Source of the DNA: Gemmatimonadota bacterium
GTDB taxonomy: Bacteria > Gemmatimonadota > Gemmatimonadetes > Longimicrobiales > Gaopeijiaceae
Direction of reading: 5' to 3'
Length of the DNA stretch: 64,000 nt
Assembly: GCA_030428885.1 (NCBI GenBank)
Contig: JAUIEJ010000009.1
Span: 62,001 to 126,000, forward strand
A model generated the notes under the pieces. That model saw only the letters and a program-made list of their open reading frames with translations, did no database searches and had not been told where the DNA came from. Position 1 is the stretch's first letter; each line of letters begins with the position of its first letter. Shown here piece by piece: positions 4,976 to 8,880 of this stretch. The translations under genes and the position numbers were made by a program.

Positions 4976-5560
4976 ATGCGCCGTTGGGCTGCACTGGGAC
5001 TGCTGACGGGCGTGCTGAGCATGGGGGCCACCACGCCCGCCACGGCCCAGGAGAACGACTTCCTGGCCGTGGGCACCGAGGCCCCCGACGTAACGTTCAC
5101 CGGTGCCACGCGCTACGGCGTGGTGGGTGAGCACAGCCTCAGCGACTTCCGCGGCGAGACCGTCGTACTGGCCTTCTTCTTCCGCGCCCGAACACGCGGC
5201 TGAACGATTCAAATGCAAGCGTACCGTGATCAGTACGCACGTCTCTTCCACGACGGACGCAACGTCCATCTCGTGGGCCTGTCGGCCGACACCCCCGAGG
5301 AGCTCGCCTCCTGGGCGTCGGACGATGATTTCCAGTTTCTGTTCGGAAGCGATCCCGGGAGCACCGCCTACGCCGCATTCGGTGGCGATCCCCGGGACAA
5401 CGGCATGGTGGGAAGCCGAGCGGTCATCGTGGTGGCGCCCGACGGCACCATCGCCCACGTCATGCCCTCGTTCAATCAGGTGGATCCCGGGGCCTACGAG
5501 GAACTGGCCGCGGCCATCGACGCCGTGACCCCCGATCCGGACGACGAGGGCGGCGCCTGA
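4976..5560 (+). CDS. Exported peroxiredoxin-like selenoprotein (Sec at in-frame UGA), Sec-Prx1
   Basis: A 194-residue thioredoxin-fold peroxiredoxin-like protein, read through an in-frame TGA at 5201-5203 (residue 76). ATG at 4976 has AGGAG 5 bases upstream. Residues 1-25 are a signal peptide, so the protein is likely periplasmic. The mature part runs [12 protein letters not shown], the strand [13 protein letters not shown], then [12 protein letters not shown]. The UGA sits exactly at the peroxidatic Cys of the BCP/PrxQ-like 'F..A.T.GC' motif, and homology continues without a frame change to the stop. The translated protein has no Cys at all, so it would be a one-Sec enzyme needing an external reductant. 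Codons just after the UGA (att, caa, caa, gcg, cgt, gat, gca, cgt) are AT-rich compared with the gene, as expected if RNA structure constrains them. Pseudogenisation is unlikely given the second case at 8266. Confidence 0.85.
5219..5238 (+). promoter_or_regulatory. Candidate bacterial SECIS hairpin for Sec-Prx1
   Basis: A perfect 6-bp inverted repeat GCGTAC / GTACGC encloses the 8-base loop CGTGATCA. The loop starts 21 bases after the UGA, inside the 16-37 base window known for bacterial SECIS elements, and has G at its second position as the consensus asks. It lies inside the coding region, as bacterial SECIS elements must for SelB to deliver tRNA-Sec. Confidence 0.75.
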
Positions 5561-5654: not shown

Positions 5655-6212
5655 TCAGCGGAGGAACCGCACCGTCATGAAGTCCTGCTCGGGCCGCTCC
5701 GGGACCCGGGTGTCCACGAAGCGGGTCTGGACGCCCCACCCCCCGTCGGGATCCAGGTCCAGGGCGAAGACGAACTCCTTGGCCAGGCCCATGGCCGCCA
5801 TGACCGGATCGTCGTCGGCCCCCTCGGTGGCCACCCAGCCGCCCACCTCCCGGCGCGCCCCCTGGGCCATCACCAGGTAGGTGGCCGAGTCGTCGAGGTT
5901 GACCACCTGGTAGCGCTCGTTGCGCCGGTCGAAGCCCACGATGTAGACCACCTGCTCCGCCGGGGCCCCCTCGTCGAGGGACGCGTCCACCACCAGGAAA
6001 CGACCCCCCAGGATCGCGCTGGCCTCGGCCCGGCCCGTGGCCGCCACCCGATCACCGCCGGCGCCGTGAAGGACGACCTCCACCTGCCACCGCCCGGCCA
6101 GGTTCTGGAGGGCTTCGTGTTCCCCCGACGGGCCGGACATCTCATCGGCGCTCTGGCCGGCGGCCGGCGACGCCGCCAGGGCCAGCACGAGCCCGGCGGC
6201 CACGGCCCTCAT
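5655..6212 (-). CDS. Secreted DUF1579-like protein
   Basis: A 185-residue exported protein with a clear signal peptide (MRAVAAGLVLALAASPAAG, cleavage near residue 20). The body contains 'LQNLAGRWQVEVVL', 'GRAEASAILGGRFLVVDAS' and a VVYIVGFDRRNERYQVV strand, the pattern of DUF1579, a lipocalin-like barrel family of unknown activity. The ATG overlaps the stop of the TlpA-like gene by ATGA, so translation is coupled. It is the last gene of the three-gene run CcdA-TlpA-DUF1579 that lies between the two selenoprotein genes. A role as a periplasmic binding or chaperone partner of the redox cassette is only a guess. Confidence 0.75.
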   Translation of the reverse strand: MRAVAAGLVLALAASPAAGQSADEMSGPSGEHEALQNLAGRWQVEVVLHGAGGDRVAATGRAEASAILGGRFLVVDASLDEGAPAEQVVYIVGFDRRNERYQVVNLDDSATYLVMAQGARREVGGWVATEGADDDPVMAAMGLAKEFVFALDLDPDGGWGVQTRFVDTRVPERPEQDFMTVRFLR

Positions 6213-6721
6213 CGCTCGGTGCCCAGAAGCTCCTGCACGGCCCCCACGAGGTCCTGGTCCCGCCCCACGCCCGAGTACACCACGGTGCCCTCGCCGTCGA
6301 GCAGCATCACGATGGAGGTGGTGGCGGCGTTGTAGGCCCGAACCGCGTTGCCGCCTCCGTCCCACAGATAGGGGAACGGGGCGCCGTGTTCGTCCACGTG
6401 GCGCTGGACCCGCCGCTGGGACTGACTGACCGCCACGGCCACGGCCACGATGTTGATCCGGTCGGCGAAGTCCTCGGCGATCCGGTCGAGCTGGGGCTGG
6501 AGCGCCTCGCAGTTCTCGCACCAGGTGGCCCAGAACTCCAGGAGGGTGGGCACCCCGGCCTCGAAGAAGTCCGAGAGCTGCACGGCGTTGCCGTTCAGGT
6601 CCTCGAGTTCGGCGTCGGGAGCCGCGGTCCCCACGGCGAGTCCCACGCCCTGCCCCTGCACGGGAAGGGCGACGAGGGCCGCGGCGACGAACGCGAAGAC
6701 GAGAGGGAGGGACGAGCGCAT
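6209..6721 (-). CDS. TlpA-like periplasmic thioredoxin with WCENC active site
   Basis: A 170-residue exported thioredoxin-fold protein. Residues 1-24 form the signal peptide. The redox motif W-C-E-N-C (Cys 68 and Cys 71) follows the strand VPTLLEFWAT, and a later 'TTSIVMLLDGEGTVVYSG' carries the thioredoxin-fold strands, although the usual cis-Pro is replaced by a Thr-Ser pair. Family members reduce disulfides in apocytochrome c or other periplasmic targets, with electrons supplied by CcdA. The gene lies 9 bases after the CcdA-like gene and overlaps the DUF1579 gene. Its placement between two exported peroxiredoxin-like selenoproteins makes it a good candidate for the reductant that recycles them, which is an inference from context. 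Confidence 0.88.
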   Translation of the reverse strand: MRSSLPLVFAFVAAALVALPVQGQGVGLAVGTAAPDAELEDLNGNAVQLSDFFEAGVPTLLEFWATWCENCEALQPQLDRIAEDFADRINIVAVAVAVSQSQRRVQRHVDEHGAPFPYLWDGGGNAVRAYNAATTSIVMLLDGEGTVVYSGVGRDQDLVGAVQELLGTER

Positions 6722-6730
6722 GGGAGTCCT

Positions 6731-7462
6731 CTACAGATTGTAGCCGGCTTTCACGAAGTAGTACTGAGCCACGCCCAACATGATCACGGCCGCCGCCCGC
6801 TTCATCCACACGAGCCAGCGGCCGGACCGGGGCAGGGCGGCCAGGGCCCCGGAGAACAGTCCCACCACCACCAGAAGCGCCGTCATGCCCAGGGAGAAGA
6901 CGAACAGATAGACGAAGCCCATGAGCCCCGCCTGGGTGGCGGCCACCCAGGTCAGGACCACGGCGAACGCCGGGGCCCCGCAGGGCGCGGCCACCACCCC
7001 CGAGCTCGCCCCCAGGAGAAACACGGCCCCGTACGAGCCCCCTTCCTGGCGGCCCGCCCAATCCAGCAGCCGCCGGGGCACGGGCACCGGGAGCACGTCG
7101 AACATGACCAGGGCGAAGAGGAGCAGTAGGTTGCCGATGGCCAGGAGGGCCCAGGGGTTGGCGCTCACCGACCCGAAGAGGGTGCCGGAGAGACCCGCCA
7201 CCAGTCCCAGCGTGGCGTAGAGCATGGCCATGCCCACCACGTAGGTCAGGGTGAGGGCCAGGGTGCGACCCTTCGACTGGTTCTCGGTGGCCGTCCCCGA
7301 AATCACCGAGACGGTGATGGGAATCATGGGGTAGACGCAGGGGGTGAGACTCGTCAGGACTCCGGCCCCGAAGAGGGTGGCCAGAGCCAGGACGGGACTC
7401 GCCGACAGGCTCTCGGAGAGGGCCTGCGTGCTACCGATCTGGGCCGCGATGGAGAAGAGCAT
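6731..7462 (-). CDS. CcdA/DsbD-type transmembrane electron carrier
   Basis: A 243-residue membrane protein that passes electrons from cytoplasmic thioredoxin to periplasmic thiol proteins. The two redox cysteines are in the family's membrane motifs: TPCVYPM (Cys 42) and APCGAPAF (Cys 161), in homologous three-helix halves. A SafE/CcdA-like C-terminal helix follows. It has no soluble DsbD alpha or gamma domain, so it matches CcdA/ScsB-core size. The downstream TlpA-like gene, 9 bases away, would be its periplasmic partner. Together they form a complete reductant relay to the space where the two selenoproteins are predicted to reside. Confidence 0.9.
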   Translation of the reverse strand: MLFSIAAQIGSTQALSESLSASPVLALATLFGAGVLTSLTPCVYPMIPITVSVISGTATENQSKGRTLALTLTYVVGMAMLYATLGLVAGLSGTLFGSVSANPWALLAIGNLLLLFALVMFDVLPVPVPRRLLDWAGRQEGGSYGAVFLLGASSGVVAAPCGAPAFAVVLTWVAATQAGLMGFVYLFVFSLGMTALLVVVGLFSGALAALPRSGRWLVWMKRAAAVIMLGVAQYYFVKAGYNL

Positions 7463-8265: not shown

Positions 8266-8880
8266 ATGAAGCGACTCACGCTCGTTCTCATCTTCGCCGC
8301 CGCCCTGGTGGCCGGGCTTCGCCTCACCCGCTCGTCTCCCATGCCCCTGGGGCCCGCCGACGGCCACGATCTGGCCGCCGTGGACACGGGGCGGGTCGCC
8401 CTGGGCGACGTGGCCCCGGACTTCACCCTGGAATCCCGCTCCGGGGAACGCATCACCCTCTCCGCACTCCGGGGACGTAGGGTCCTCCTGGTGTTCTACC
8501 GGGGCCACTGGTGACCCTGGTGCGCATCTCAGCTCGTGGAGCTGAACGGACTGCTCACCGATGACCAGAAGGCCGACACCGACATCCTGGCCGTGTCCAT
8601 CGACCCACCGGACCTCCTGGACCGCATGGTGGAGCGCATCGTGGACGAGGGCGGGTTCGATCCGGCCGACGCCCCGGACTTCGCCTTCCTCTCCGATCCA
8701 GGCCACCGGGTGATCGATCGTTACGGGATCCGAAACCCCGACGACGAACGGGGGATTCCCCATCCCACGACCCTCGTGCTGGACCGGGACGGCGTGGTGC
8801 GGTGGAAGTTCATCGAAACCGACTACCGGATCCGACCCACCAACGACATGATCCTCGACGCGCTGGCGGGAATCGAGTGA
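8266..8880 (+). CDS. Membrane-anchored or exported peroxiredoxin-like selenoprotein with UxxC motif, Sec-Prx2
   Basis: A 204-residue AhpC/TSA-type redoxin read through an in-frame TGA at 8512-8514 (residue 83). Residues 1-20 are a hydrophobic signal or anchor. 'GDVAPDFTLESRSGERITLS' begins the redoxin domain; the strand LLVFYRGHW leads into U-P-W-C-A-S-Q-L, where homologues read FYRGxWCPxC. The Sec therefore replaces the peroxidatic Cys and Cys 86 would be the resolving thiol. The frame stays open for 122 more residues with the family's 'ILAVSID', 'FLSDPGHRVIDRYGI' and 'TLVLDRDGVVRW' strands. No Shine-Dalgarno sequence is obvious before the ATG. The protein likely reduces peroxides or disulfides outside the cytoplasm. 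Confidence 0.87.
8529..8545 (+). promoter_or_regulatory. Candidate bacterial SECIS hairpin for Sec-Prx2
   Basis: A perfect 7-bp stem TCAGCTC / GAGCTGA closes the 3-base loop GTG. The loop begins 22 bases after the UGA at 8512-8514, within one base of the spacing seen for Sec-Prx1, and its first base is G as in the bacterial SECIS consensus. Confidence 0.75.

Follow-up and report, generated by a model that had tools for sequence, protein, structure and literature searches.

A predicted exported one-selenocysteine peroxiredoxin conserved over most of the Gemmatimonadota

Marine metagenomes are rich in peroxiredoxins with selenocysteine (Sec) in a TxxU motif, a kind of enzyme known since PrxU of Eubacterium acidaminophilum (PMC1088965, PMC2398784, PMC13188914). 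Their PxxxTxxU motif has been called highly conserved (PMC13188914). The hairpin that directs Sec insertion is described by a bSECIS model with a loop of 3-9 nt, a stem of 4-16 bp, a spacing of 16-37 nt and an MFE of at most -7.5, which also asks for a G within the first two loop positions (PMC13188914). Peroxide reduction in the cell envelope is known experimentally from Caulobacter, where the work of Cho et al. 2012, as described in PMC5403849, gave the route ScsB -> TlpA -> PprX. The Gemmatimonadota are not mentioned in the selenoprotein review PMC13188914, and in the open-licence literature we found no paper on Gemmatimonadota selenoproteins and no account of a Sec peroxiredoxin family in this phylum or of its export, motif change and neighboring CcdA and TlpA genes. 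The gene analyzed here (Sec-Prx) resembles the TxxU Sec peroxiredoxins (PrxU and the metagenomic forms, PF00578) in its AhpC/TSA fold, the Thr at -3, a predicted peroxidatic Sec and a bSECIS hairpin just downstream.

The gene and its homologues

The window, that is, the whole stretch of 64,000 nt that was analyzed (G000:C22:62001-126000), is part of a genome of 5.39 Mb. The nearest named relatives are Gemmatimonadota MAGs (Longimicrobiales, Gemmatimonadales), with the same TGA in 6 of 6. Features of the gene are as follows.

4976-5560, + strand: Sec-Prx gene, 194 aa with Sec as predicted residue 76; PF00578 match; 102 TGA-bearing homologues
4976-5050, + strand: probable signal peptide, residues 1-25, with a hydrophobic N-terminus and the end A-x-A-Q
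5180-5182, + strand: Phe69, which replaces the proline of PxxxTxxC, at the motif position compared between Sec and Cys forms
5201-5203, + strand: UGA codon, very probably read as Sec (residue 76), aligned with the Cys of homologues, with sel machinery in the genome
5219-5238, + strand: bSECIS hairpin GCGUAC-CGUGAUCA-GUACGC, 20 nt, with a 6-bp stem and an 8-nt loop (5225-5232)

The frame starts with an ATG at 4976, closely preceded by a Shine-Dalgarno-like AGGAG, and ends with a TGA at 5558-5560. As claimed in the earlier note, it is open from 4976 to 5560 but for one TGA, at 5201-5203 (codon 76), and the decoded protein would be otherwise Cys-less, there being zero Cys codons within the frame. 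Among the 102 Sec homologues, 95% have a hydrophobic N-terminus of the signal-peptide type by a simple hydropathy test, and it is very likely that the product is exported.

Relatives of Sec-Prx were found in 290 of the 298 Gemmatimonadota genomes searched, a large share of them with one TGA inside the match, and 139 distinct copies extracted from the phylum formed the homologue set. The earlier note had proposed looking for homologues with Cys or U at residue 76, and at exactly codon 76 the set has TGA in 102 copies and TGC or TGT in 37. Two ways in which that reading might have failed were not seen: homologues do not end at the UGA but run on past it, and a sequencing error does not account for a TGA that recurs in more than 100 genomes. 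A search of plasmids found only distant homologues, with <60% identity.

Ordinary gene callers would stop the ORF at the TGA, leaving a downstream ORF at 5213-5560, which is what might be expected of a pseudogene, a sequencing error or a true stop, with the downstream ORF dead or separate. Such a reading is hardly credible given a TGA shared by more than 100 genomes, purifying selection on both sides of it, an invariant hairpin behind it and sel machinery in the genome. Reassignment of UGA (e.g., to Trp), or its read-through as a residue other than Sec, is favored by the open frame after the TGA and by nothing beyond; since TGA also terminates this gene, the homologues have Cys rather than Trp, and a SECIS and sel genes are present, its chances are minute. 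Conservation was the ground for rejecting a pseudogene, a sequencing error and a change of code alike.

Sec machinery and the hairpin after the UGA

Absence of the sel genes had been named in the earlier note as grounds for rejecting Sec, and all were found in the source genome on contigs other than that of the window: a tRNA-Sec of 74.5 bits with anticodon TCA (ARAGORN), selA (519 bits), selB (317 bits) and selD (355 bits). The last is itself a UGA gene, with an in-frame TGA in the active site UACK. Across the homologue set, 90 of the 102 Sec forms are in genomes with selB above the cut-off. Of the other 12 genomes, below the selB cut-off in the wide scan, 10 have a tRNA-Sec of 65-79 bits and three have selB fragments, leaving two, G286 and G160, both of them drafts, with neither selB nor tRNA-Sec; a true lack of selB in these 12 was set aside, draft fragmentation being the explanation for the larger part. 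The 37 Cys forms come nearly all from genomes without Sec machinery, and in the 12 selB-less Cys-form genomes that were tested the tRNA-Sec score was at most about 50 bits in all.

The hairpin at 5219-5238 lies within the ranges of the bSECIS model, with a loop of 8 nt, a stem of 6 bp and a UGA-to-loop spacing of 21 nt. A G is present in the first two loop positions, with U after it (CGU), and the 51-nt segment from the UGA on folds with an MFE of -8.5 kcal/mol, below the limit of the model. Of the 102 Sec genes, 93 carry exactly this 20-mer, against 0 of the 37 Cys genes, and it is invariant at synonymous sites although 1,536 codings exist for the peptide it encodes, AYRDQYA. Because the Cys set was taken mainly from genomes lacking selB, the unbiased test is that of the hairpin against selB: the hairpin occurs in 162 of 219 selB genomes versus 11 of 77 others (Fisher p = 3e-20, a value that overstates independence, related loci sharing ancestry). 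Of 296 genomes, 173 have its 16-mer core, in about one copy each, and the reversed control gave 0; at least this number of the sampled Gemmatimonadota genomes carry a hairpin-marked selenoprotein gene whose product would be cut short by standard gene calling. The outer pair (columns 18/39) covaries as G-C/U-A/C-G with 23 two-sided changes, a count reached in 0 of 500 shuffles, and it is unpaired in 42 of 83 sequences.

The codons after the UGA had been described as unusually AT-rich, as though the RNA were under structural constraint, and both parts of that description held up. Third-position GC over codons +1 to +14 is 0.63 versus 0.81 elsewhere in the Sec genes (Wilcoxon p = 8e-16), whereas in the Cys genes it is 0.89 over the same codons and 0.87 in the rest; at codons +8/+9 it falls to 0.02-0.03 in Sec genes versus 0.78-0.89 in Cys genes. 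The cause is the conserved hairpin at 5219-5238. Hairpin stability alone gave no separation of Sec from Cys genes by synonymous resampling (z of -0.72 versus -0.61), and it is the invariance of the hairpin sequence, not its stability, that separates them. That invariance across the phylum seems far above what SelB recognition needs, as other hairpin sequences serve selD and the second UGA gene in the window; the loops of these, read from the sequence, likewise start with GU. The loop of the Sec-Prx hairpin contains the self-complementary UGAUCA.

Because the downstream hairpin is Sec-specific and agrees with the bSECIS model in all four respects, the assignment of codon 76 to Sec is, at the level of sequence, close to certain, and we have scarcely any doubt that Sec would actually be inserted at the UGA at 5201.

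A coding-statistics scan revealed only one other convincing TGA gene within the window, at 8266-8880 (+ strand). It is AhpC/TSA-like with the sequence FYRGHWUPWC (UxxC), has a hairpin, CAGCUC-GUG-GAGCUG, spaced from the UGA as in Sec-Prx, and likely encodes a peroxiredoxin-like thiol:disulfide selenoprotein.

Active site and the motif proline

The description of the product as peroxiredoxin-like in the earlier note agrees with its match to AhpC-TSA (PF00578; 74.9 bits, cut-off 26) and with the predicted fold. An AlphaFold2 model with Cys replacing Sec (pLDDT 90.9, pTM 0.83) has the peroxiredoxin fold, with residue 76 opening helix 74-85, and the top Foldseek matches are all peroxiredoxins, including Bcp/PrxQ, AhpE and 2-Cys Prx such as Prx3, with target TM-scores up to 0.87. 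The Thr/Ser and Sec part of the PxxxT/SxxC motif is present: Thr73 (-3 to Sec76) is kept in 100 of the 102 Sec forms. The Gly at -1 is kept as well. Arg148, which we take from known peroxiredoxins to be the active-site arginine, is invariant in 57 aligned sequences. Beyond residue 35, no Cys other than at position 76 was found in 100 of the 102 Sec forms and in all 37 Cys forms, and this is therefore a one-Sec/one-Cys family without a resolving Cys.

The proline part of the motif is lacking in Sec-Prx, which has Phe69. At this position the 102 Sec forms have 78 F, 20 Y, 1 I, 1 V and 2 P, whereas all 37 Cys forms have P. A pattern search of 395 genomes, blind at the proline position, gave 86 Cys-type matches, 81 of them with a Pro codon; two of the other five are chance frames. 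The remaining three are BCP-type Cys peroxiredoxins that have Gln for Pro, at G087:C1:152014, G205:C38:6342 and G188:C1:124991 (FFQKASTPGCT). A tree built without either column has five changes each of Sec/Cys and of Pro/non-Pro, three of them forced by well-supported branches; in the forced pairs the two change nearly always together, although three pairs cannot reach significance. The Cys forms of G006, G096 and G037 are nested within the Sec clade, and all carry Pro. In G006 (L067, L162), selB and tRNA-Sec are kept and the nested form has Cys, so that Sec was apparently given up in the peroxiredoxin gene while the machinery stayed.

A strict link of Sec with proline loss was softened by genus g55, in which nine Sec copies keep Pro, each in tandem with a Cys copy that also has it (L182, L183, L184, L186, L187, L188, L190, L191, L192). 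These pairs possibly represent an intermediate stage of the Cys-to-Sec change. Because of the Pro-bearing copies the rule must be stated loosely: among the sequences compared, Cys forms always keep Pro, and Sec forms tolerate an aromatic residue there, most of them having one. A broader proposal is that replacing Cys with Sec freed this peroxiredoxin from a near-universal proline, Sec lineages moving to Phe/Tyr and the lineages that returned to Cys (G006, G096, G037) moving back to Pro, and that F/YxxxTxxU marks a distinct exported class served by a CcdA-TlpA chain. We regard this as tentative and somewhat doubtful. If true, it would mean a mechanistically distinct class, present in most of the phylum, whose active-site pocket or substrate differs. 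In any case, Cys and Sec forms that occur side by side and show a linked Pro/aromatic change are a natural experiment on the value of Sec to a peroxiredoxin.

Because the motif proline is missing, peroxidase activity should not be taken for granted. The UGA could encode Sec in a protein other than a classical peroxidase, one acting on another oxidized substrate or as a thiol/selenol oxidoreductase together with TlpA, as might be suggested by the loss of proline in 100 of 102 Sec forms against its retention in 37 of 37 Cys forms and by the adjoining TlpA-like partner. We consider this improbable, as the Thr at -3, the Gly at -1 and the active-site Arg are kept in a peroxiredoxin fold, the CxxC/UxxC motif of thiol:disulfide oxidoreductases is absent, and the Sec copies of g55 retain the proline. 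A peroxide is the likely substrate of Sec-Prx.

Neighboring genes, electron supply and comparison with known systems

In the window the Sec-Prx gene converges on genes for a DUF1579 protein, a TlpA-like protein and a CcdA/DsbD-type protein, the last two of which are candidates for its electron supply.

6209-6721, - strand: exported TlpA-like thioredoxin with WATWCENC (Pfam AhpC-TSA/Redoxin/Thioredoxin), proposed direct reductant
6731-7462, - strand: CcdA/DsbD-type transmembrane electron carrier (PF02683 DsbD_TM, 158 bits), proposed cytoplasmic electron source

TlpA and CcdA genes adjoin the peroxiredoxin gene in 42 of 54 Sec loci (the window and 41 of 53 others) versus 1 of 20 Cys loci, an adjacency that spans families f1, f2, f4, f5, f7 and f9 and whose p-values overstate the route, the loci being related. 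The TlpA-like neighbors keep W-C-x-x-C, nearly all as WxxWCxxC. Both genes are transcribed toward the peroxiredoxin gene and share no operon with it. Most of the 12 Sec loci (of 54) without the pair nearby belong to family f5, and neither neighbor is present at the nested Cys revertants G006, G096 and G037. No other neighbor that was tested is conserved at Sec loci; RecQ, DUF1579, OMP and Prx2 were rejected as partners because they are not syntenic.

The earlier note had reasoned that a one-Sec enzyme must be reduced by a partner, and the conserved TlpA and CcdA neighborhood supports that view; the partner genes, like the proline change, are additions to it. Since these genes adjoin Sec loci and only rarely Cys loci, a CcdA -> TlpA -> Sec-Prx route is suggested. 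Alternatively, the gene neighborhood could be incidental, and a low-molecular-weight thiol or a different exported protein with a thioredoxin fold could act as reductant, the UxxC selenoprotein at 8266-8880 being one candidate. The 12 Sec loci without TlpA/CcdA nearby would fit this alternative, but it is unlikely considering that the pair, and no other neighbor, is adjacent across six families and that Prx2 is not syntenic. Judged from gene order, the neighboring electron-supply system probably recharges Sec-Prx, with TlpA/CcdA its likely reductant.

In the proposed mechanism, SelB with Sec-tRNA-Sec, recruited by the hairpin at 5219-5238, would serve ribosomes at the UGA at 5201, and Sec would be inserted at the peroxidatic position. 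The selenolate of the exported enzyme would reduce a peroxide, and the resulting selenenic acid, which no Cys of the same chain could resolve, would be reduced by the neighboring TlpA-like thioredoxin, which CcdA would recharge across the membrane from cytoplasmic thioredoxin (cytoplasmic thioredoxin -> CcdA -> TlpA -> Sec-Prx -> peroxide). Taken together, we have good confidence that the gene encodes an exported one-Sec peroxiredoxin that would be reduced via CcdA -> TlpA and act on peroxide. At the sequence level the arrangement of UGA, fixed hairpin and electron-supply neighbors is conserved over most of the phylum, and it points to a selenium-based antioxidant route of the cell envelope in a group that is abundant, partly aerobic and found in soil and marine environments.

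Sequence searches of NCBIfam and PDB identified only distant relatives of Sec-Prx. The best in both sequence and fold are BCP/PrxQ proteins (2cx3, 2ywn, 3hjp), and the best NCBIfam match, NF006960 (BCP/PrxQ), scores 51.7 bits, under its cut-off of 140. Unlike these proteins, Sec-Prx has Sec, a probable signal peptide and no resolving Cys at +5, where it has Q and where no homologue has Cys. It also resembles AhpE of Mycobacterium tuberculosis (4x0x, 1xxu), a fold relative of the one-Cys type. AhpE is cytosolic and Cys-based, has the motif proline and uses different reductants. The NCBIfam PrxU model NF040737 gives 25 bits, far under its cut-off of 270.

With the ScsB-TlpA-PprX system, as described in PMC5403849, the locus shares the order of membrane carrier, exported TlpA and exported peroxiredoxin, the parts being partly homologous, and co-encoding of carrier, thioredoxin and peroxiredoxin of that type is seen in the 42 Sec loci noted above. 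It differs in its CcdA-size carrier and in having predicted Sec for Cys, and the link between the parts is here drawn purely from gene neighborhood. Unlike proteins of the PrxU type, the Gemmatimonadota Sec-Prx is predicted to be exported, has no second Cys and carries the motif F/YxxxTxxU. What is new relative to the known TxxU Sec peroxiredoxins is this phylum-wide and very probably exported form in the Gemmatimonadota.
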